Shown here in pieces: positions 16,609-56,894 of a stretch of DNA of 64,000 nt. How positions within the stretch are numbered: the first letter of the stretch is position 1; each line of letters begins with the position of its first letter. Source of the DNA: Dehalococcoidia bacterium (GTDB taxonomy: Bacteria > Chloroflexota > Dehalococcoidia > Lucifugimonadales > UBA3495); assembly GCA_022823505.1 (NCBI GenBank), contig JAJEIA010000001.1, positions 1 through 64,000 of the forward strand, given 5' to 3'. Below the pieces are notes generated by a model. That model searched no databases. It had not been told where the DNA came from and saw only the letters and a program-made list of their open reading frames with translations. Position numbers and translations under genes: made by a program.

Positions 16609-18870
16609 ATGGCAGTCACCGCGCCTGAACTGAATGTCGTCGGCACCAGCCCTATCCGCCATGACGGCGTCGACAAGGTCACAGGACACGCGGTCTTCGG
16701 CGTGGACGTCAGCATTCCCGGCATGCTGCATGCCCAGGTCCTGCGCAGCCCCCACGCCCACGCGCGCATCACCCGTATCGACACCTCGCGCGCCGAGGCT
16801 CTTCCTGGCGTCCTGGCCGCCATGACGTCGGCCGACATGCCGATGGCGCCTGCTCAGGGCCCCCAGGCCTTCGGCAACGCCGTCCGTCTCAAGGCCATGA
16901 ACGTCATGGCGCGCGACAAGGCCCTCTACCACGGCCACGCCGTGGCCGCCGTGGCCGCGACCTCTTCCCACGTTGCCACTGAAGCCCTTCGCCTGATACA
17001 GGTCGACTACGAGGTCCTCGACCCCGTCCTCGACGCCAAATCCGCCATCGCCCCCGACGCACCCATCCTGCACCCCGACCTGCGCATGGAGACCGCCGGC
17101 GCGTTCGCTGACACCCCCGGCAACATCGCCAAGCACATCGTCCTTGAGGAAGGCGACATCCAAGCCGGCTTCGCCGCCGCCGACCTGGTCCTGGAACGCG
17201 ACTTCAGCACCTCCACCATCCACCAGGGCTACATCGAACCCCACAACGCCACCGCCTTCTGGCGCGCCGACGGCACCCTCGAAATCCACTGCAGCACCCA
17301 GGGCCACTTCGGCGTCCGCAACGAGATCAGCCAGATGCTCGGCATCCCGATCTCCAACATCCGCGTCGTCCCCGCCGAAATCGGCGGCGGCTTCGGCGGC
17401 AAGCTCACCAACTACGTCGCGCCCATCGCGGTCGTCCTCGCCCGCAAGGCCGGTCGTCCCGTCAAGATCACCATGGACCGCACCGAGACCCTGCTCGGCA
17501 CCGGCCCTGCCCCCGCCGCATTCATCCGCTGCAAGATCGGCGCCACCTCGGCCGGTGACCTCACCGCCGCGCAGCTCGAAATGCACTTCGAGGCCGGCGC
17601 TTTCCCCGGCTCCTCCGTCGGTGGCGCCGCCAACTGCGGCCTCGCCCCCTACAAGCTCCGGAACTTCCGCGTCGACGGCTACGACGTCGTCGTCAATAAG
17701 CCCAAGTCCCAGGCCTTCCGTGCGCCCGGCGCCCCCCAGGCGGCCTTCGCCGTCGAGGGCGTGATCGACGAGCTTTGCGAATCCCTCGGCATGGATCCCC
17801 TCGAATTCCGTCTCCGCAACGCCTCGGGCGAAGGCGACCTCCGCCCCAACGGCACCCGTTTCAACGACATCGGCAACAGCGAGCAACTCCGCGTCGCCAG
17901 CGCCACAACCCACTACCAGTCGCCGGTTGCGCAGAAGAACGGCCGCCTCTGCGGCCGCGGCGTCGCCTCCGGCTTCTGGGGTAACGGTGGCGGAACCTCG
18001 TCCGCCACCGCCCGCCTCAACGGCGACGGCTCCGTCACCCTCCTCGAGTCCTCGCCCGACATCGGCGGTACCCGCACGTCCATCGCCATGCAACTGGCCG
18101 AGACCCTCGGCATCGGCGTGGATCGGGTCCACCCGCGCATCCCCGACACCGACGCCATCGCCGAGGGCGGCAACGCCGCCGGCAGCCGCACCACCTTCGC
18201 CACCGGCTGGGCCGCCATCGAGGCCGCCCGCGATCTCCAAAGCAAGATGCGCGACGCCCTGGCCGACATCTGGGACGTGGCCGAATCCACCATTGACGTA
18301 TCGCTGAATGGCTTCGCCGCCAACGGCTATTCGGTCGACTTCGCCCAGGCCGCCTGCCTGATTGTCAGCGAGGGCGAGGCCCCCGTCGGCGTGGCCACCA
18401 CCACCCCAACGCTCCCCGGCCCCTCATTCGCCACCCACATCGTGGACGTCGCCGTCGATCCCGAGACCGGCAAGGTAGACGTGCTCCGCTACACCGCCGT
18501 CCAGGACGTGGGCAAAGCCGTCTATCCGCCCTACGCCAGCAGTCAGATCGAGGGCGGGATTGCCCAGGGCATCGGCTGGGGAATCACCGAGGGCTACACC
18601 TACGACGACGCCGGCCGCATGACCAACACCTCGTTCCTGGACTACCGCATGCCCACTGCGCTCGACGTCCCCAACCTGGAAATCGTCATGGTCGAATACC
18701 CGAATCCCGGCCACCCCTACGGTGTCCGCGGCGTCGGCGAACTGCCGATCGTCCCGCCCCTGGCCGCCCTCGCCAACGCCATCCACAACGCCACCGGCGT
18801 GCGGATGACCAACCTGCCCATGAACCCCGGCGCAGTGCTGGAAGCACTGTGGGAGCAGAACGGCGGCTGA
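16609..18870 (+). CDS. xanthine dehydrogenase-family molybdenum-binding subunit
   Basis: About 753 residues. It has the aldehyde oxidase/xanthine dehydrogenase a/b hammerhead (HAVFGVDVSIPGMLHAQVLR), the Mo-pterin motif GGGFGGK, FRAPGAPQAAFAVEGVIDEL, and a C-terminal GVGELP whose Glu is the catalytic base. The start is uncertain: ATG 16609 was preferred, with ATG 16567 and a longer open frame upstream. The FAD-binding and 2Fe-2S subunits that normally form one operon with it are absent nearby. Codon use is strongly C-ending. Confidence 0.85.
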   Translation: MAVTAPELNVVGTSPIRHDGVDKVTGHAVFGVDVSIPGMLHAQVLRSPHAHARITRIDTSRAEALPGVLAAMTSADMPMAPAQGPQAFGNAVRLKAMNVMARDKALYHGHAVAAVAATSSHVATEALRLIQVDYEVLDPVLDAKSAIAPDAPILHPDLRMETAGAFADTPGNIAKHIVLEEGDIQAGFAAADLVLERDFSTSTIHQGYIEPHNATAFWRADGTLEIHCSTQGHFGVRNEISQMLGIPISNIRVVPAEIGGGFGGKLTNYVAPIAVVLARKAGRPVKITMDRTETLLGTGPAPAAFIRCKIGATSAGDLTAAQLEMHFEAGAFPGSSVGGAANCGLAPYKLRNFRVDGYDVVVNKPKSQAFRAPGAPQAAFAVEGVIDELCESLGMDPLEFRLRNASGEGDLRPNGTRFNDIGNSEQLRVASATTHYQSPVAQKNGRLCGRGVASGFWGNGGGTSSATARLNGDGSVTLLESSPDIGGTRTSIAMQLAETLGIGVDRVHPRIPDTDAIAEGGNAAGSRTTFATGWAAIEAARDLQSKMRDALADIWDVAESTIDVSLNGFAANGYSVDFAQAACLIVSEGEAPVGVATTTPTLPGPSFATHIVDVAVDPETGKVDVLRYTAVQDVGKAVYPPYASSQIEGGIAQGIGWGITEGYTYDDAGRMTNTSFLDYRMPTALDVPNLEIVMVEYPNPGHPYGVRGVGELPIVPPLAALANAIHNATGVRMTNLPMNPGAVLEALWEQNGG

Positions 18871-18906
18871 TTTCCCTACCAGACGCGACTCGTCAGGTAA
18901 GATATA

Positions 18907-18946
18907 GAGGCGAACCCGCCGCGACGGGTTCGCCTCTACTCCATTT
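18907..18946 (+). terminator. intrinsic terminator after the molybdenum hydroxylase
   Basis: A perfect 12-base stem, gaggcgaacccg/cgggttcgcctc (18907-18918, 18925-18936), with a six-base loop, followed by tactccatttt. It belongs to the same palindrome style found at 24911, 39151, 61442 and 63041. Confidence 0.7.
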
Positions 18947-18964
18947 TATCGCTGTGGGGACACC

Positions 18965-19321
18965 ATGAATTACCACCCGCTGGAGTTGCTTGACCTGGCT
19001 GACCAGGCGATTTCCCTAGGTGACCATGATGGGGGGTCAATTCTGCTGTGGCGGGCAGCCGAGACGGCGCTATGCGACCTGGCCGATTACTACGGCCAAC
19101 CCCATGGCAATGAGGAAGAGTTAATGCGCTTCGCCAAGTGGCTGGACGTGAAGCACAATCGCGGCGTCGAGAACTGGCACCTGGTCGCTTATTTCGCGGC
19201 AGGGGCTTTCCAAGACAATGCCAAGTGGCACTACGAGGATTGGGAGGAGATGAAGTACTCCGTACCAAACGTCCGCAAATTTGTAGAGATCCTGCAAAGC
19301 TATTGTGAAGCCGCGCCATGA
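18965..19321 (+). CDS. small HEPN/PaREP1-like protein, pair 1 type A
   Basis: 118 residues, all-helical. It begins LELLDLADQAISLGD and carries ILLWRAAETALCDLADYYG, a helix with the W-x-A-x-x-x-A pattern shared by the type A members at 19719 and 39957. The second half, FAAGAFQDNAKWHYEDWEEM, replaces the LHxxFY motif of the type B partners. The HEPN assignment is inference from helix pattern and neighbours. The stop overlaps the next start by four bases (ATGA), so the two proteins are made together. Confidence 0.65.
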   Translation: MNYHPLELLDLADQAISLGDHDGGSILLWRAAETALCDLADYYGQPHGNEEELMRFAKWLDVKHNRGVENWHLVAYFAAGAFQDNAKWHYEDWEEMKYSVPNVRKFVEILQSYCEAAP

Positions 19322-19686
19322 CGTTTCAGGAGCGCATCAGCGTAGCGGAAGAATATCTGGCGTTGACCAATCAGCTAATCAGCGTGGGTGAATTCGCTGC
19401 TGCCGGCGAAATGCTTTGGGGCGCCGTGCATAACGCTATACAGGCCATCGGCATACGACATGACCTGCTGGCGGACCGGGAAGAGGTTAGGCGAGCAGTC
19501 GTGATAAACCATCTAGTGGTTGTTCATGGGTATAGCGACGTGCTGGTCGATGAACTACAAGCTGCGGGACGGCTGCACGGGCATTTCTACAATCGGAACG
19601 TAGCGGAGCCCCGTCTGCTGCGGGAGCTGATACCCACCACGCAGCAATACATTGGCAGCCTGTTGAGCATAGCCGGAACTCGATGA
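19318..19686 (+). CDS. small HEPN/PaREP1-like protein, pair 1 type B
   Basis: 122 residues. The helix AAGEMLWGAVHNAIQAIG and the later RLHGHFYN are the two marks of the PaREP1-like group (E-M/K-x-W-G-A and L-H-x-x-F-Y). HEPN ribonucleases often have an R-x4-6-H motif; here RLHGHF is the nearest equivalent, so catalytic activity is uncertain. The start overlaps the upstream stop as ATGA. The next pair starts 32 bases further on. Confidence 0.7.
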   Translation: MTFQERISVAEEYLALTNQLISVGEFAAAGEMLWGAVHNAIQAIGIRHDLLADREEVRRAVVINHLVVVHGYSDVLVDELQAAGRLHGHFYNRNVAEPRLLRELIPTTQQYIGSLLSIAGTR

Positions 19687-19718
19687 TCACGCCCTGATCC
19701 GAAAGGCGCAGGACAACC

Positions 19719-20072
19719 ATGTCCACAAAAAGCACAATCCCACAGGATATCCAGTCGCTGCTGGACCAAGCCGATTTGAGCCTGCTGCGGGGCAAGCACG
19801 GTGAGGCGTCAACTTTTTTCTGGAAGGCTACCGAGGCGGCGATACGGCAGGCGGCACTGGCGCACGGGCACAAGCTGCGCTCTTTGGATTACGACGACGT
19901 GGAGCCGTTCATCGACAGTCTTGAGCGCCAAACCGGCGTCCCACTGGTATCGGGCTACCTGATTACCCTCGAATACGAGGCCAACGGCGACGGTGATTTG
20001 CTAGATTTGGCTGATGTAGCGTTCTACGAGCCGGTGGTGCGCGCGTTTATATCGCGTTTGCTGGCAGCCTGA
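19719..20072 (+). CDS. small HEPN/PaREP1-like protein, pair 2 type A
   Basis: 117 residues, helical. The core helix is TFFWKATEAAIRQAALAHGH, followed by LRSLDYDDVEPFIDSL. It is close in layout to the protein at 39957 (MWQATQATFAALADMHG, LKSLDEDD), which marks type A as a real family. The stop and the next start share one base (TGATG), so it is coupled to the type B gene. Confidence 0.68.
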   Translation: MSTKSTIPQDIQSLLDQADLSLLRGKHGEASTFFWKATEAAIRQAALAHGHKLRSLDYDDVEPFIDSLERQTGVPLVSGYLITLEYEANGDGDLLDLADVAFYEPVVRAFISRLLAA

Positions 20073-20422
20073 TGACGCGCGCGGCAAATCATTACGAACT
20101 ATCGTTGCGGTGCCGCCGCAAAGCGGAGCAGGAGTTTGAGCTAGACGACCTGCTAACCGCCGCTGAAATGATGTGGGGCGCCATCGTACATGCCATCAAG
20201 CATATCGCTCCGCAATACACATCGACGAGGCTGAACTCGCACCTCGAGATAAAACTGGCGGTGCCGGAAATAGATGGGCAGCTCTCGGACATAGATTTGC
20301 GAGAAGGATTCGGTAACGCCGAAGCGCTACATCGGTACTTCTACCGTGTCCACTTTGCCGACCACCAAGTGAGGAACAGTTTTCGTAGATGCCAGCGGCT
20401 GCTGGATGCGCTGCTGGTCTGA
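20072..20422 (+). CDS. small HEPN/PaREP1-like protein, pair 2 type B
   Basis: 116 residues. It has the type B marks AAEMMWGAIVHAIKHI and ALHRYFYRVHF. It starts on the last base of the upstream stop (TGATG). A PD-(D/E)XK protein follows after 20 bases on the same strand. The four small genes and the nuclease-like gene are thus likely one transcript, starting after the terminator at 18907. Confidence 0.7.
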   Translation: MTRAANHYELSLRCRRKAEQEFELDDLLTAAEMMWGAIVHAIKHIAPQYTSTRLNSHLEIKLAVPEIDGQLSDIDLREGFGNAEALHRYFYRVHFADHQVRNSFRRCQRLLDALLV

Positions 20423-20442
20423 CTCAAGGAGAAGATTACAAA

Positions 20443-21450
20443 ATGACAACGCCGGAATCGAGCCAATCGGAACCCGTTTCCCTGCGGAAGATTTGGCCGC
20501 ATGAAGAATATGACTTCACGCGGTGGTTGGCCAAGTCCGAGAACTTGAACCTGTTGGGAGAAGTGCTCGGCGTAAAACTGGCACCGATTCAGAGAGAAGT
20601 GTCTGGCTGGTCCGGTGAGTTGGACATCTTGGCGGAAAGGGCGGATGGAGCCAAGGTTGCTATCGAGAACCAGTTGGAAGCTTCGGATAGCGACCACTTT
20701 GCCAGGCTCATCGGCTACGCTGCGGAGCATGACGCTCGCGATCTGATTTGGGTGGCGCCCCAGTTCTGGGAATATCACTTGAGGCAGGTTGCCTGGCTCA
20801 AGAAAGCGATGGCCGGCAATGTAGAAATTCATGCCGTTGCGGTGCGTCTTCTCCCCGGCGGGGATTTACGTCCGGTTGGCAGCGATGAAACTGCACCGGG
20901 CTTCCATGCGGAATTCTCACCAATGGACTTGAACAAGGATGTGCCGGAGTGGGCAGTCCTCAGGTTCGGAGAACTATCGGAAACGGATCAAAAGTACCGG
21001 GATTTCTTTCTACAACTGCTGGGAGGCTTGCGCAGTGCAGGGTTCACCGACACAGAGCGCGTTAAAGCCAGTAACGATCAGGAATTCCCCAGCGGTTTTC
21101 CTGACGTCACATACCACGCAGGATTCTGGGGCGGGCCAAGCCTCGACTTGTACCTGTGGATTGCCACGTGGGACCGGGACCGCAACAAGCAGATTTTCGA
21201 TGAGCTGTATCAGCAGCGGAAGGAAATCGAAAAGGAATTGCCAGGAGTTGGCTGGGGGCGTAGGGATGGTCAGCGGATGTCGGCAATATACCTCCAAAAC
21301 CCCGGTTCGATCTCGGACTCAGATGAAAAACTGGTCGAGCTCCGGGCGTGGGCATCACATATGCTGCCCAAACTCAAATCTACCATCCAACCTCGACTGG
21401 AAAAGATCATGAGCGAATTGCAATCCGACGCTCCGAAGGCGACGCAATGA
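20443..21450 (+). CDS. PD-(D/E)XK nuclease-superfamily protein, DUF4268-like
   Basis: 335 residues from ATG 20443, preceded by AAGGAGAAG; the open frame starts earlier at 20389 without support. The nuclease core is visible as GWSGELDILAER (D61) and KVAIENQLEASDSDHFARL (E75, Q77), the E-x-Q variant common in this family. The C-terminal half (about 170-335) matches the DUF4268 style with SLDLYLWIAT and GWGRRDGQRMSAIYLQ. Such proteins are often linked to phage defence. The stop overlaps the next, frameshifted gene as ATGA. Confidence 0.8.
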   Translation: MTTPESSQSEPVSLRKIWPHEEYDFTRWLAKSENLNLLGEVLGVKLAPIQREVSGWSGELDILAERADGAKVAIENQLEASDSDHFARLIGYAAEHDARDLIWVAPQFWEYHLRQVAWLKKAMAGNVEIHAVAVRLLPGGDLRPVGSDETAPGFHAEFSPMDLNKDVPEWAVLRFGELSETDQKYRDFFLQLLGGLRSAGFTDTERVKASNDQEFPSGFPDVTYHAGFWGGPSLDLYLWIATWDRDRNKQIFDELYQQRKEIEKELPGVGWGRRDGQRMSAIYLQNPGSISDSDEKLVELRAWASHMLPKLKSTIQPRLEKIMSELQSDAPKATQ

Positions 21451-21807
21451 AGCTTACTGACCTGATCGCTGCCGCCCCCTGGGCGCGAGGCCGTAACCTA
21501 CCGCGAAACCTGGCCGCACGAGTATGTGCTGTTGCAGAAGGACGGGCAGCGGGAGTTGCTGGAAGCCGTGTGTGAGCGGTTTCGTAGCGGAGAGGGCGTT
21601 CCATGCCGGTTCTTCTCGATGGACAACCTGTACCTGTTTGTCGGTGAGTACAAGTATTGGCTGATGACTCATTACGACGAGGTGGACTGGGCCGACGAGG
21701 TGGTGCTCAACCGGGCGCGGCTGTATCGCGACCGCCGCGACTTCATCATCCAGGACGGCGACACCGGCATGCGGGAGGACTATCCCGGCCCGCCCCTGGC
21801 ATCCTGA
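21447..21807 (+). pseudogene. frameshifted small gene (MKLTDLIAAAPW...YRETWPHEY family)
   Basis: An ATG overlapping the nuclease stop opens MKLTDLIAAAPW. The frame then breaks at the GGG run 21481-21483. Removing one G gives WREAVTYRETWPHEYVLLQ and a continuous 119-residue protein ending in YPGPPLAS. The downstream part reads RFFSMDNLYLFVGEYKYW and NRARLYRDRRDFIIQDGD. It is therefore a real gene carrying a one-base insertion, or an assembly error. Function is unknown; I recall similar uncharacterised proteins from Chloroflexota. A decayed fragment of a paralogue lies at 24352. Confidence 0.7.
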
Positions 21808-21871
21808 AACGTTGGGTGCGTTCGCCCGCTGCGACACGTTACTCGCCGAGGCGAAGGCGCGCTACCGGCAG

Positions 21872-22273
21872 CTAATCCGGCGGGCGGCCCACCACCAAGT
21901 CGTGCAGGGTTGCGAAGCCCACGGGGTCCCGCTGGTCGTTCACCACGATGGCACAGTGGATTTCGAACTGCACCAGCAACCGGACGGCGTAGCGGACCAA
22001 CATATCCAGGGGCAAGGTCAGCGTGGGCTTTGACATTATCTCGTACACGTTGACGCGCTCCGGAGAGCGGTGCCGCGCGATGACGTCCCGGGCGATGTCG
22101 GATACCAGCAGCAGCCCCACCTCGTCCGTTTCGTCGCGCCGGTTGACCGCCAGCGCGTCGACGTCGTGCCGCTGCATCAGGGCCATGGCCTCGGCCACGG
22201 TCGCCAACCCGTCGATGCTGTAGAGGTTGGGGGCCATCACGTCCCCCACCCGGACCGGGACTCGCGCGCTCAT
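21872..22273 (-). CDS. CBS-domain protein of the DUF1538 operon
   Basis: 133 residues with two CBS motifs: VGDVMAPNLYSIDGLATVAEA (about 9-60) and VYEIMSKPTLTLPLDML (about 76-130). CBS pairs sense adenine nucleotides, which suggests energy-dependent control of the transporter-like proteins upstream. It is the last gene of a four-gene operon, and its ATG overlaps the stop of the PII-like gene (ATGA). Confidence 0.85.
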   Translation of the reverse strand: MSARVPVRVGDVMAPNLYSIDGLATVAEAMALMQRHDVDALAVNRRDETDEVGLLLVSDIARDVIARHRSPERVNVYEIMSKPTLTLPLDMLVRYAVRLLVQFEIHCAIVVNDQRDPVGFATLHDLVVGRPPD

Positions 22274-38248: not shown

Positions 38249-38647
38249 TCAGGCTCCGTCAGCGTAGCCGGCCAGTCCGGCGGCGTCGCTGATGTAGTCA
38301 GACGTCTCACGAATTCGCCGATGGATCTCATCCACAGGTTCACAGATGCCCATGTAGAAACAGGTTCCGTGCAGGTGTCCTTGCCGTGAGTAATAGCGGC
38401 CAACCAAGGGGCCGACGGCGCTGTCTGCTCCGGCTAATGTGACCAGGCCGCACGTAGTATCTGGTGAGAATTCCGGCTCCTCGCCCGTGCGGGCCAGGAT
38501 GAGCGCGTCGGTGGCCTGCTTGGTGGCGCACCATGCCTTTTCCGCGGCGTCGCGGACGTCGCCGGCCTCCAGCAGCAGCAGGGCATCGGCGTGGACGTGG
38601 CGGGCGTCGGCAAAGATGGCGGATACACGGTCGGTAGTGGTTGTCAT
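38249..38647 (-). CDS. small HEPN/PaREP1-like protein, pair 3, second copy
   Basis: 132 residues, clearly paralogous to the next gene. Marks are RDAAEKAWCATKQATDALILA and SRQGHLHGTCFYMGICEP, the same E-K-x-W...L-H-G...F-Y pattern as the type B proteins at 19318 and 55987. Function is unknown; small helical HEPN-type proteins may be RNases or partners of nucleotidyltransferases. No nucleotidyltransferase is adjacent. It lies 31 bases upstream of the FAH gene. Confidence 0.75.
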   Translation of the reverse strand: MTTTTDRVSAIFADARHVHADALLLLEAGDVRDAAEKAWCATKQATDALILARTGEEPEFSPDTTCGLVTLAGADSAVGPLVGRYYSRQGHLHGTCFYMGICEPVDEIHRRIRETSDYISDAAGLAGYADGA

Positions 38648-38669
38648 ATGGTGAAGGTGCCTTCCTGTT

Positions 38670-39065
38670 TCAGGCGGCGTCGGAATAGCCGGCCAGTCTG
38701 GCAGCGTCGCTGATGTAGTCGGCGGTCTGGCGGATGCGGCGTTCTACTTCGTCAGCGGGTTCGCAGATGCCATGGTAGAAGCATTCACCATGCAGGTGGC
38801 CCTGTCTTGAGTAGTAGCGTCCGATCAAAGGATTGACCGCGCCGTCTGCTTCGGCCAGCCTGAGCAGGCCGCGAGAGGTATCCGAGGAAAACTGGGGCGC
38901 TTCGCCCGTGCGGGCCAGGATCAGCGCGTCGGTGGCCCGCTTGGTGGCGCACCATGCCTTTTCCGCGGCGTCGCGGATGTCGCCGGCCTCCAGCAGCCGC
39001 AGCGCGTCGGCGTGGACGGCGCGGGCGTCGGAGAAGATGGCGGATACGCGGTCGGTGGCTACCAT
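38670..39065 (-). CDS. small HEPN/PaREP1-like protein, pair 3, first copy
   Basis: 131 residues from the ATG ending at 39065; the long open frame upstream is noncoding. It is highly similar over its whole length to the downstream copy: EKAWCATKRATDALILA, RYYSRQGHLHGECFYHG, RQTADYISDAARLAGY. Only 22 bases separate them, so this is a recent tandem duplication. Both are downstream of the 39151 palindrome, which probably separates them from the NIPSNAP gene. Confidence 0.75.
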   Translation of the reverse strand: MVATDRVSAIFSDARAVHADALRLLEAGDIRDAAEKAWCATKRATDALILARTGEAPQFSSDTSRGLLRLAEADGAVNPLIGRYYSRQGHLHGECFYHGICEPADEVERRIRQTADYISDAARLAGYSDAA

Positions 39066-39190: not shown

Positions 39191-39808
39191 TCAGTGCATC
39201 GGCGAGAAGCTGGCCGGGATCATGATTTTGTTTTCCTGTTTCACGCGGCCGGGAGCGCCGGAAGGCCACTGGGGGATCTTGCTGGCGGCGGCGCGGACCT
39301 CGGCGCGGTGGTTCAGGTCCTGGTAGGGCCAGACGTGCATCCACTTGTTCAGGTCGCCGAACTCGGTGAACATGCCGGCGGCCAGCGGCGAGAACTCCTC
39401 GCGGTAGGGCAGGGATTCCTCCCAGCGGCGCAGCAGTTCGGGCATGGAGCCGTTCTCATAGGTGTAGACGCGCATCTCGTAGATGTTGCCCAGCGCCTGG
39501 TCGCCGCCCATGGGACGCATGAAGGGCGCGGGGTTCCAGATCTCCGAGTTCATGTTGAGGATGTTGCCGGGGGTGATCTTCGGCGGCCAGTTGGGGTCCT
39601 GGCCGGCCTCGGCGCGAATGCGGTTGCGCTCCTCCATGTTTTCATAGCCCCAGACGTGGATGATCTGGTTCAGCGGGCCGATCTCGGTGTGCCAGAAGGC
39701 GGCGATGGGCGAGTACTTCTCGCGGTGGGGAAGGGCCTCGGCGAAGGCTTCTTCGGCCTGGGGGACGGCGCCGGGCTTGAGGTCGTAGGTGCGTACTTCG
39801 TAGATCAT
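39191..39808 (-). CDS. NIPSNAP family protein, two domains
   Basis: 205 residues made of two repeated NIPSNAP units: MIYEVRTYDLKPGAVP...FWHTEIGPLNQIIHVWGYEN and YEMRVYTYENGSMP...FTEFGDLNKWMHVWPYQD. The fold is a ferredoxin-like dimeric barrel. The role in bacteria is unclear. It is clearly a single-gene internal duplication. Confidence 0.9.
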   Translation of the reverse strand: MIYEVRTYDLKPGAVPQAEEAFAEALPHREKYSPIAAFWHTEIGPLNQIIHVWGYENMEERNRIRAEAGQDPNWPPKITPGNILNMNSEIWNPAPFMRPMGGDQALGNIYEMRVYTYENGSMPELLRRWEESLPYREEFSPLAAGMFTEFGDLNKWMHVWPYQDLNHRAEVRAAASKIPQWPSGAPGRVKQENKIMIPASFSPMH

Positions 39809-39917
39809 GGCTCTCTCCTGGTGCGCTTTTGGCGTGTTGTGGTTCGGGGTAAAGACGCGGCCAGTGTAGCAACGGCGCCGAACAGGGGCAACCGGAACGG
39901 GCGACGAGGTGCGTTGC

Positions 39918-39923
39918 TATAAT
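39918..39923 (+). promoter_or_regulatory. -10 box upstream of HEPN-like pair 4
   Basis: A consensus TATAAT 33 bases before the ATG at 39957, in gttgcTATAATgctggg. No -35 element is evident at 17 bases. A similar box, TATACT (55938-55943), precedes the PaREP1 pair at 55987. Confidence 0.5.
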
Positions 39924-39956
39924 GCTGGGTACGAGCCGAGTGCTGGAGCGATTGAG

Positions 39957-40328
39957 ATGAGCGCGCCGGAAATGGGCAAGACTGCTTTGGAATACGTGGA
40001 CGCCTCCAAGCTTGAGCAGGCGGCTGGCAACCACATCAAGGCTGCTGCGCTGATGTGGCAGGCGACGCAGGCGACTTTTGCCGCGTTGGCCGATATGCAC
40101 GGGATTGAGCTTAAGAGCCTGGACGAAGACGACCTGATCATGCTGGCCAGAGCGCTGGAAGCGGACGGCTCCGTGCCCAAGTGGCGCTATCGGGGTGGGC
40201 TTTCCCCAGGTTCTCTCTTGAAAGACCACGCCGAGATGGAAGTGTTGGAAAGTTATCAACTGGATCTGGCTTACGAAACGGCGGAACAATTCATTCGGGG
40301 GTGCTTTGACAACCAACAATCCCCCTGA
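39957..40328 (+). CDS. small HEPN/PaREP1-like protein, pair 4 type A
   Basis: 123 residues from ATG 39957 with GGAG upstream. Core helix AAALMWQATQATFAALADMHG and LKSLDEDDLIMLARAL match the type A proteins at 18965 and 19719. It overlaps the next reading frame by 23 bases, so expression of the two is linked. Confidence 0.7.
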   Translation: MSAPEMGKTALEYVDASKLEQAAGNHIKAAALMWQATQATFAALADMHGIELKSLDEDDLIMLARALEADGSVPKWRYRGGLSPGSLLKDHAEMEVLESYQLDLAYETAEQFIRGCFDNQQSP

Positions 40329-40707
40329 ACAGTACAGGCAGAGAGCCGTTCGCCATGAAGCGCGAGCGCGTAATTATCGTCGCCAGGCCAATCTGATGCT
40401 GGAACGTGATAACGACACCGACTGTGCCGGGGCTCTCCTGTACGAAGCCGCCAAGCAGTGTATTAATGCAGTCGCTAACCAGCGTGGGAGGAACCCTGGA
40501 ACTACCAGTGGTAAAGTCAACGTGGTGCGAGAGTTAGCGAGGGAAGAGACGAGCCGCACACCTCTGATGCAAAACTGGCAACGCACCGACCGACTTCATA
40601 TCCACGCAGACCGTGGAAACCTAAACGCCATCGAATATGCTGAAGCTTGGGAACAGACCCAGGCATTCATCGACGCAATGCTGACGATCTACCACCGCCA
40701 CGCCTGA
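40306..40707 (+). CDS. small helical protein, pair 4 type B-like
   Basis: 133 residues from a TTG at 40306 inside the end of the type A gene. The helix AGALLYEAAKQCINAVANQRG and RTDRLHIHADRGNL correspond in position to the W-G-A and L-H-x-x-F-Y motifs of other type B proteins, but the W and F-Y are lost. It is thus a diverged B member. The ribosome site is weak (gggggtgc), and the 23-base overlap implies reinitiation. Confidence 0.6.
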   Translation: MTTNNPPEQYRQRAVRHEARARNYRRQANLMLERDNDTDCAGALLYEAAKQCINAVANQRGRNPGTTSGKVNVVRELAREETSRTPLMQNWQRTDRLHIHADRGNLNAIEYAEAWEQTQAFIDAMLTIYHRHA

Positions 40708-40722
40708 CCAAGGAGGACCAAC

Positions 40723-41118
40723 ATGGAATACCGCATCAACCACGTCCACATCCGCGCCGCCGACCCTCACGCCACAGCGGCGTGGTACGAGAAGCACTTC
40801 AACGCGCGCATCGTATCGGAGCGGGAGGTGATGCCGCGCACCATTACCATCGGCATGGAGATGGGCGGGGCCTGCCGGCTCAACGTGTCGTCCAAGCCTC
40901 CCGGATCGTCCGATGAGCGCGCCGTGGCCGAGCTGAACCGGTTGGGGCTGGAGCACTTCGGGTTCGACGTGGAGGACATCGAGGCGGAGATGGAACGGCT
41001 CACGGCCGCCGGCATCCGCACCGTGCTGCCCATCACTGAGACGCCCACGGGTTCGAAGCTGTCCTACATCGAAGGGCCGGACGACGTATTGATCGAACTG
41101 GTGCAGCCGGCGCCATAG
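40723..41118 (+). CDS. VOC (glyoxalase-fold) family protein
   Basis: 131 residues with AAGGAGG before ATG. Metal-ligand marks of the vicinal oxygen chelate fold are INHVHIRAADPHATAAWYEKHF at the start, FDVEDIEAEMERLTAAGI and SYIEGPDDVLIELV (C-terminal Glu). Substrate unknown. It is followed by the amidase after 17 bases and probably cotranscribed with it. Confidence 0.88.
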   Translation: MEYRINHVHIRAADPHATAAWYEKHFNARIVSEREVMPRTITIGMEMGGACRLNVSSKPPGSSDERAVAELNRLGLEHFGFDVEDIEAEMERLTAAGIRTVLPITETPTGSKLSYIEGPDDVLIELVQPAP

Positions 41119-54925: not shown

Positions 54926-55879
54926 TCAGTCGTTCGGGATCAGGGGCATCACCTCGCGGGAGAAGCGTTCCATGGCTTCCTGCTGCTGCGCGGCGCTGTC
55001 GGCGGGGAAGCTGAAGATGAAGTGCTGCACGCCCAGGTCCTGGTACTGGCGCAGGTCGGCGGCGATCTGCTCGGGGATGCCGGACACCATGCGGCGCTCG
55101 GCCTGGGGCGCGTCGTGGAACACGCAGTCGGTGCTGAACACCAGGTCGACGGCGTCCTCGGCGCGGCCGGCCCTCGCGCTGACGCGGCGCAGGCGGGCGA
55201 TCTTCTCGGCAAGCTCCTCGGGCTCCAGGATGGCCGGCGGGCGCAGGCCGATGGGCATCCAGCCGTCGCCCAGGGTGGCGGCGCGGCGGATGGCCGGGTT
55301 GGTGTGGCCGCCGATCCAGATGGGCGGATGGGGCTTCTGCACGGGCTTGGGCAAGAATCCGGCGCCGCTGATGTCGTAGTGCTCGCCGTGGAACTCGGGG
55401 TTGTCGGAGGTCCAGAGCTCCTTGAATATCTGGATGTACTCGTCGGTGACCTGCCCGCGCTGGGCGTAGGTGTCCAGACCCATAGCCTGGAACTCCTCCT
55501 CCATCCAGCCGACGCCGGCGCCCAGGATCAGGCGGCCGCCGCTGAGGACGTCCAGGGTGGCCAGGATCTTGGCGGTGAGCACCGGGTTCCGATAGGGGAG
55601 GATGAGCACGTGGGTGCCCAATTTGACGCGGGTGGTGCAGCCGGCCAGGAAGTTCAGGGCGGCCAGGGGTTCGAAGTAGGTGTTGTCCCGCTGGAAAGGC
55701 GCCACGCCGTCGGCGGCATAGGGGTAGAAGGACGAGACCTCGTGGGGGATGATGATGTGGTCGCTGACCCACACGTGGTCGAAGGACAGGTCCTCGGCGC
55801 GCTGGGCGAGGGTGCGCAGGTTTTCAGGCGATGCCATGGCTCCGCGGCTGGGCAGGGAGCATCCGAAAGTTACGGGCAT
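54926..55879 (-). CDS. LLM-class (probably F420-dependent) oxidoreductase
   Basis: 317 residues of the luciferase-like family: MPVTFGCSLPSRG, RVKLGTHVLILPYRNPVLTA and LDVLSGGRLILGAGVGWMEEEF, then the C-terminal DLRQYQDLGVQHFIFSFP. The TPD-type N-terminus fits the F420 subgroup. Substrate unknown. It is convergent with the phosphotransferase gene. Confidence 0.88.
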   Translation of the reverse strand: MPVTFGCSLPSRGAMASPENLRTLAQRAEDLSFDHVWVSDHIIIPHEVSSFYPYAADGVAPFQRDNTYFEPLAALNFLAGCTTRVKLGTHVLILPYRNPVLTAKILATLDVLSGGRLILGAGVGWMEEEFQAMGLDTYAQRGQVTDEYIQIFKELWTSDNPEFHGEHYDISGAGFLPKPVQKPHPPIWIGGHTNPAIRRAATLGDGWMPIGLRPPAILEPEELAEKIARLRRVSARAGRAEDAVDLVFSTDCVFHDAPQAERRMVSGIPEQIAADLRQYQDLGVQHFIFSFPADSAAQQQEAMERFSREVMPLIPND

Positions 55880-55986
55880 GGGGTGCCTCCGTGTTGGCGT
55901 TCAGGTTCGGGTGGGGCTGGGTGAACGGGGCCGATGCTATACTACCTGCATACCTGCGGCAAGCAGACATTCACGCAGAACGTACT

Positions 55987-56439
55987 ATGCCACCCCGAAC
56001 CCGACGACAATCTCCCGAACGGCGGGATGCCGCCATAAGGAAGCATCTACCCAAGGCGCGGGAGTACTGGTCGAAATGGCCGGCATACCTTGCGGAGGCG
56101 GACCTTTGCCAGGCCGGGGAAAAGGCGTGGGGAGCCGTGGCACAGTTGACTAAAGCGATAGCTACGCATCGCGGTTGGCAGCATTCCGATCACGATCGGC
56201 TCCGAGAGGTCATTCGTGAACTGGCAAACGAGTCCAGCGACCATCGGGAGACCATCATTCGCGGCCTGACCTCCGCCGACATCCTGCATGGCAACTTCTA
56301 CGAAGTGTTCCTGGACCGTTACCAGACGGAGCTGGCGCTGAATGACACGGCCCTTCTGATGGAGGCGCTTTGGGCCGAACTTCCCGACGAGTACACGGGC
56401 GGGGCAGGTTTCGCCGAATGGGTTGAGAGGGAATACTAA
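55987..56439 (+). CDS. PaREP1-like small protein, pair 5 copy 1
   Basis: 150 residues from ATG 55987, preceded by a TATACT -10-like box at 55938. The N-terminus RTRRQSPERRDAAIRKHLPK is basic. Then come QAGEKAWGAVAQLTKAIA and ADILHGNFYEVFL, the two PaREP1/HEPN-type marks. A near-identical copy follows after two bases. Function is unknown. Confidence 0.8.
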   Translation: MPPRTRRQSPERRDAAIRKHLPKAREYWSKWPAYLAEADLCQAGEKAWGAVAQLTKAIATHRGWQHSDHDRLREVIRELANESSDHRETIIRGLTSADILHGNFYEVFLDRYQTELALNDTALLMEALWAELPDEYTGGAGFAEWVEREY

Positions 56440-56441
56440 CC

Positions 56442-56894
56442 ATGCCGCCGCGACAGCGACGCCAGTCTCCTGAACGGCGCGATGCCGCCATTCGCAAGCA
56501 TTTGCCGAAGGCAAAGGAGTACTGGTCCAAATGGCCAGCATACCTGGCCCAGGGCGACCTGTGCCAGGCCGGCGAGAAGGGCTGGGGAGCGGTGGCCCAA
56601 CTGGCGAAAGCAGTGGCGAGTCATCGAGGTTGGGTCCACTCGGGGCACGAGGAGATCCGAAGCATTATTCGCCAGATAGCCGACGAGTCTCCTGATGAAC
56701 CGGATATCCGGAGAGCATTGTTAGCCGCTGAATCGCTTCACGGGAACTTTTACGAAATCCATCTGGACTACCGGGGCACGCAATTGGCTCTTGAAGACGC
56801 TGCATATCTAATGGTTGTCCTTTGGGGGCTGCTCCCGGGAGAATATACCGACGAAGTTGCGTTTGACGAGTGGGCCGCCTCGAACGAGAATTGA
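56442..56894 (+). CDS. PaREP1-like small protein, pair 5 copy 2
   Basis: 150 residues, the same length as copy 1 and similar along its whole length (QSPERRDAAIRKHLPKAK, EKGWGAVAQLAKAV, ESLHGNFYEIHLDY). Two bases separate it from copy 1. mnmA begins only three bases after it, so the pair sits at the head of a housekeeping operon that includes rnhB and yraN. Confidence 0.8.
   Translation: MPPRQRRQSPERRDAAIRKHLPKAKEYWSKWPAYLAQGDLCQAGEKGWGAVAQLAKAVASHRGWVHSGHEEIRSIIRQIADESPDEPDIRRALLAAESLHGNFYEIHLDYRGTQLALEDAAYLMVVLWGLLPGEYTDEVAFDEWAASNEN

Follow-up and report, generated by a model that had tools for sequence, protein, structure and literature searches.

Four small genes in two tandem pairs, followed by a gene for a nuclease-like protein and a short sixth gene, raise the question of whether they encode a single defence or RNA-processing module, as proposed in a preliminary description, or whether the pairs are units of their own. 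The locus lies in the window, i.e., the whole 64,000-nucleotide stretch that was analyzed, which is contig C24 of an incomplete genome of a Dehalococcoidia bacterium. The nearest named relative at the locus is the MAG Chloroflexota bacterium RHO3_bin_54.

Gene content of the locus and protein families

The region from 18965 to 20422 contains two head-to-tail gene pairs, A1-B1 and then A2-B2 (Table 1). The coordinates confirmed the proposed organization of the quartet with an ATGA overlap in one pair and a TGATG overlap in the other, and the motifs that had been described, W-x-A-x3-A in A and E-M-x-W-G-A plus L-H-x-x-F-Y in B, were both present. The terminator-like repeat upstream of A1 is at best a putative terminator, because such sites were fewer than the mean of shuffled sequences. 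A scan of 18700-22000 for sigma-70 promoters yielded no match.

Table 1. Positions of the genes and of the repeat in the window
Feature	Position	Strand	Match or remark
Terminator-like 14-bp inverted repeat with T-rich tail, located between A1 and the xdh-type gene preceding it	18905..18938	+	
A1, HEPN-fold, 118 aa, FQDNA in place of the LHxxFY His	18965..19321	+	
B1, PaREP1-family HEPN, 122 aa, LHGHFY, ATGA overlap with A1	19318..19686	+	PF05942 1.4e-6
A2, His-less HEPN paralogue, 117 aa	19719..20072	+	
B2, PaREP1-family HEPN, 116 aa, LHRYFY, TGATG overlap with A2	20072..20422	+	PF05942 2.2e-7
Nuclease-fold gene, N-terminal PD-(D/E)XK-like and C-terminal DUF4268	20443..21450	+	PADLOC PDC-S11
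Sixth gene, ATGA overlap with the nuclease gene and a broken frame	21447..21807	+	conserved part 21466-21807
A3, third A-type gene in the window	39957..40328	+	
B3, third B-type gene, LHIHAD (His kept, FY replaced)	40306..40707	+	

B1 and B2 matched the PaREP1 family (PF05942) with 28.7 and 31.2 bits, respectively, versus a curated cut-off of 24.4; A1 and A2 alone had no family match in the profile search. An iterated profile that was seeded only with B1 and B2 recruited about 50 genes of the source genome in addition to A1 and A2. Because iterated searches can drift, the kinship of A and B was cross-checked by structure. For the A1 model (pLDDT 94), the top solved match was 2q00 (Z 15.7), and the subsequent matches included the HEPN-annotated structures 2hsb (Z 14.2), 1o3u, 3o10, and 1wol. 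For the B1 model (pLDDT 94), 2hsb (Z 13.2) and 2q00 (Z 13.1) were on top. The first clearly unrelated helical proteins appeared at Z 7.3 in the A1 search and at Z 9.6 in the B1 search; helical bundles reach middling Z-scores by chance, but the top matches were consistently HEPN proteins and covered the whole chain. With Foldseek, neither model had a match under E 0.001, and a B profile found 2jpu/2q00 among the PDB sequences at 1.4e-5. The HEPN assignment is based on TM-scores, Z-scores, and sequence together. 2q00 is a Sulfolobus protein that is given as the PaREP1/8 structure in PMC3710099. Taken together, the family match of B, the iterated profile for A, and the models, which were like and not unlike HEPN proteins, bore out the proposed HEPN/PaREP1-like nature of both gene types. 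The two types differ in their motifs as described, but they are not unrelated, being paralogues in one family.

The types were assigned by the residue at the column of the LHxxFY His in the fourth helix, since classification with an A profile alone is unreliable, as it also attracts some solitary His-bearing genes. The His was present in 68 of 68 paired B proteins. The canonical Rx4-6H motif was not found, i.e., the paired B set had no conserved Arg 4-8 residues upstream of the His. In the 58 readable A proteins, the column was occupied by Arg in 26 cases and by Lys in 8, and the A genes of the locus itself encode Gln (A1) and Glu (A2). Thus, Arg at this column is a tendency and not a rule.

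The nuclease-type gene, which stops at 21450, likely starts with the ATG at 20443, preceded by AAGGAG; the listed reading frame from 20389 is probably too long. The product of 335 residues matched the PADLOC model PDC-S11 over its full length (2.7e-54, query 10-322) and PF14088 (DUF4268) over the cut-off, in agreement with the earlier view that a DUF4268-like nuclease-fold gene follows the quartet. The Pfam PDDEXK_4 match was below the cut-off. Among 26 homologues, D62 and Q78 were present in all and E76 in 92%. This D..E-N-Q arrangement, with Gln replacing Lys, resembles a PD-(D/E)XK motif with a variant last residue. DUF4268 homologues were found on 63 plasmid records and one viral contig.

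The sixth gene had been regarded as ATGA-coupled to the nuclease gene. Its ATG at 21447 indeed overlaps the stop codon of the nuclease gene, but the frame is broken by one extra G near 21480-21483 (TGGGCG versus TGGCG in relatives), so that the frame of the ATG ends at 21575 and the conserved remainder lies in another frame. Either a genuine mutation or an error of the assembly may account for the extra G. In relatives, the gene is intact, e.g., MKLTELIAAAPWREAVTYRD in L083. Its family is unnamed in Pfam, NCBIfam, PHROGs, and PADLOC, and no plasmid record matched the sixth gene. The gene almost always follows the PDC-S11 nuclease.

The A-B pair in other genomes

Genomes of the genus had between 10 and 61 PaREP1 matches each, and several other genera of the family had none. 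The source genome contains about ten copies of the A-B two-gene unit. In the genus and three additional genera in the family (G019, G021, and G049 loci), 68 adjacent pairs of a His-less gene followed by a His-bearing gene were found; a His-bearing gene preceded a His-less gene only at the two joints inside quartets. With 68 A-then-B pairs and none reversed, pairing by chance is excluded. Most pairs are translationally coupled; the start of B was at most 10 nt from the stop of A in 49 of 66 pairs, including 18 pairs at -4 and 9 pairs at -1.

The distances in the A tree and the B tree were correlated (none of 2000 permutations was as high), and the A sequences formed almost one clade, with 4 changes versus 43 after shuffling. 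The exception was the fused A of contig C164 (L016), which clustered with its own B. The support of the trees was moderate, due to the short domain. Judged from these trees, A and B represent two old lineages with a joint diversification. At two fixed positions in the chromosome, both genes were present in 17 cases, neither in 10, only A in 1, and only B in none (Fisher p 8e-7, a value that is too optimistic because it is not corrected for shared ancestry). The pattern is clear despite shared ancestry and shows that A-B is present or absent as a unit. In summary, the gene order, the coupling, the tree correlation, and the gain and loss as a unit all upheld the suggestion that A and B are fixed partners, and the A-B pair is a genuine unit.

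A without B was found at five loci (L089, L116, L121, L126, and L140), and the L089 copy contains an in-frame stop. The B2 copies that were left after A2 loss were both broken (L086, L090), and no intact paired-type B without A was seen among the loci compared. This asymmetry of the orphans is small and not significant (p 0.058), and the counts lean to an inhibition of B by A. A fusion of B2 with the nuclease in G017 (L086) was considered and rejected, because this B2 is a frameshifted remnant without A2.

Several other arrangements of PaREP1-like genes were also observed. About 30 solitary or tandem His-bearing PaREP1 genes without A persist in the source genome. Tandem genes with the motif LHGxCFY are found at 38249-39065 of the window; they belong to a separate clade, both copies are His-bearing, and genes of this clade occur elsewhere in the genome as single copies. 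In genome G000, solitary His-bearing genes adjoin core genes (e.g., at L011 3231-3641 and at 55831-56894 of the window), such as the genes of an MnmA-type tRNA enzyme and of proteins of the small ribosomal subunit. At L016 2400-3101, L141, L143, and L131, a single frame encodes two fused A-type domains, and a B gene follows at L016 and L131.

HEPN RNases act as dimers, with paired motifs at the interface, and the strict co-evolution of a His-less and a His-bearing paralogue suggests a heterodimer. The explanation that we tentatively prefer is that the quartet consists of two copies of a two-gene unit, each encoding two PaREP1-family HEPN paralogues. B, which keeps the invariant His, would likely be the active, RNase-type subunit, and A, which has lost the His, usually to Arg or Lys, would be the non-catalytic partner. 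Whereas HEPN proteins usually form homodimers, the two products would assemble into a heterodimer, in which A may keep B harmless or tuned, in the manner of an antitoxin whose fold is that of its toxin. The nuclease (DUF4268/PDC-S11) would, together with the sixth gene, constitute a cassette of its own at this variable site. The suggested role of A as an antitoxin in place of an MNT protein is possible but weakly indicated. A more far-reaching version is doubtful, namely, that the pairs represent an undescribed two-component class, in which an HEPN RNase-like protein is under the control of its own paralogue, a HEPN protein without catalytic activity, and in which the active site might be a composite of the His of B and the Arg or Lys of A; this class would number about ten copies in one genome. 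Several observations speak against the preferred explanation. The numerous solitary His-bearing PaREP1 genes indicate that there is no general dependence on A and that the fold is not toxic as such. In contrast to most mobile toxin-antitoxin loci, the pairs keep stable positions with metabolic genes around them. In addition, B lacks the canonical Rx4-6H, and A1 and A2 have Gln and Glu instead of Arg at the His column.

Genomic settings and alternative explanations

The neighbors of the pairs were mostly metabolic genes, at conserved positions across the genus. Among 80 neighbor representatives, defence-model matches were few, chiefly PDC-S11 itself and two DNA methylases. A defence-island setting for the pairs in general was thus unsupported. 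A plasmid or phage origin was also rejected, as a PaREP1 protein matched no plasmid or phage record. At the NIPSNAP/VOC site (39191-41118 of the window; L197, L198, L200, and L207), a third A-B pair was present in 8 of 14 genomes of the genus. In G007, the slot is empty, and a TATAAT-like box directly precedes the VOC gene; in occupied slots, a similar box precedes A. Uma2-type putative nucleases fill the slot in G014 and G017, and by eye G016 has the same sequence. A-B pairs and Uma2-type genes are swapped in and out of the same places.

These settings would also fit a constitutive heterodimeric enzyme for RNA binding or processing, or a housekeeping regulator, which would be neither a toxin-antitoxin nor a defence system. 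The pairs keep the same metabolic loci throughout the genus, their neighbors are overwhelmingly metabolic with few defence matches, and at one site the pair lies between the promoter-like box and the VOC gene, as if in the same operon. We nevertheless consider such a role rather unlikely, because the pair is missing as a unit in 10 of 28 cases at the same sites, and a copy number of 10 to 61 PaREP1 genes per genome is unusual for an essential processing enzyme.

Close homologues of the nuclease were found in ten genomes at one syntenic site, between an xdh-type gene and a cupin-CDGSH-hydratase group; in the window, the sixth gene and the cupin gene are separated by an additional gene group of the CBS/DUF1538 type. 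The G008 site contains A1-B1 and A2-B2 with a further REase-like gene in between. Upstream of the nuclease, only A2-B2 was found in G014 and G015, only A1-B1 in G011, A2 without B2 in G012, a decayed B2 in G006 and G017, extra nuclease copies in G017 and G018, and nothing in G016. The sixth gene was present at all these variants of the site except G011. The comparison shows a stable part of the site, made up of the nuclease and the sixth gene, and a variable part, the A-B pairs. In relatives, two further genes were noted at this site. One (L087 2584-3456) matches PDC-S11 weakly, and the other (L049 4438-5265) encodes a coiled-coil protein whose PDDEXK_10 match is below the threshold; they recall the DUF1626-PaREP1 link noted in 2013 (PMC3710099).

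A single defence operon made up of the A-B pairs, the nuclease, and the sixth gene is improbable. The PDC-S11 match extends over the whole nuclease, A-B genes or remnants lie directly upstream of the site nuclease in 8 of 10 genomes, and relatives have the REase-like gene or the coiled-coil gene with the weak PDDEXK_10 match inserted at the same site. In a second, independent association, a different DUF4268 gene is directly followed by A and B in three genomes (G009, G011, and G014; L102, L107, and L108); the B of L102 is possibly truncated. By chance, a pair would be expected next to a given nuclease gene in roughly 0.1-0.2%, and thus the two associations are suggestive. However, the ten closer nuclease loci represent one syntenic site and hence one association, G016 and G018 have the nuclease and the sixth gene but no A-B, G006 and G017 have them with a decayed B2 as the sole remnant, other nuclease homologues are entirely without A-B, and most A-B pairs have no adjoining nuclease gene. 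The linkage of nuclease, A, and B rests on one shared, highly variable site and one other locus, so that the defence part of the proposal is weaker. In summary, the nuclease belongs to a candidate defence family, but the quartet and the nuclease could not be maintained as one defence operon. The postulated linkage in homologous neighborhoods exists at the site and at the second locus type, but the nuclease persists without the pairs and is probably a separate neighbor of A-B.

Finally, the PaREP1 pairs could be selfish genes of a repeat-like kind that spread within the chromosome and have no role in the cell. This view would agree with their high and variable copy number, their lower G+C content (55-58% versus 64%), their presence or absence at fixed sites, and the Uma2 gene that takes the same slot in other genomes, but it is hardly probable, as the His in 68 of 68 B proteins despite low overall identity points to selection on function, and transposases or terminal repeats were not noticed in passing.

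Comparison with known systems

The explanation favored here, a HEPN heterodimer of a His-bearing and a His-less paralogue, would represent a toxin-antitoxin-like design with one fold common to both halves. PaREP1 is an old and widespread family that is strongly expanded in some lineages, and the fixed pair offers a concrete, testable handle on its function. No description of such a pair was found in the available parts of the PaREP1 and HEPN literature, a coverage that mostly excludes subscription journals, and the A-B pairing itself appears to be undescribed.

Like HEPN-MNT systems (HepT-MntA), the pair consists of two small coupled genes, one of which encodes a HEPN protein in which a Tyr lies close to the conserved His. 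Unlike in these systems, there is no adjoining MNT gene, the partner is a HEPN paralogue, and the Rx4HxY motif is missing. The genome contains nine PF01909 matches, none of them on the contig of the window and the nearest about 2.2 kb from a pair; this genome-wide search agrees with the earlier remark that the usual MNT antitoxin partner is missing.

The window nuclease is like PDC-S11/DUF4268 proteins in its full-length match and in the conserved D and E-N-Q. DUF4268 is also present in GmrSD type IV restriction proteins (PMC4619093). PDC-S11 elsewhere is a single-gene candidate, whereas here A-B pairs precede it and a short unnamed gene follows.

PaREP1/PaREP8 were placed in the HEPN-T clade by Anantharaman et al. 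2013, with the His and no Arg, and the available text describes tandem operons as well as operons with a REase (DUF1626) (PMC3710099). The accessible part of a further article reports PaREP1 genes outside MNT operons, an RHH fusion, and large lineage-specific copy numbers in Pyrobaculum (PMC2701414). As far as these texts go, the genes analyzed here agree with PaREP1/PaREP8 in that B is a member, the His is conserved, the canonical Arg is missing, and the copy number is large and lineage-specific. They differ in that the expansion is bacterial (Chloroflexota), the neighbor is DUF4268 and not DUF1626, and, in contrast to the tandems of PaREP1/PaREP8, a His-less A and a His-bearing B form a fixed, ordered, and co-evolving pair.
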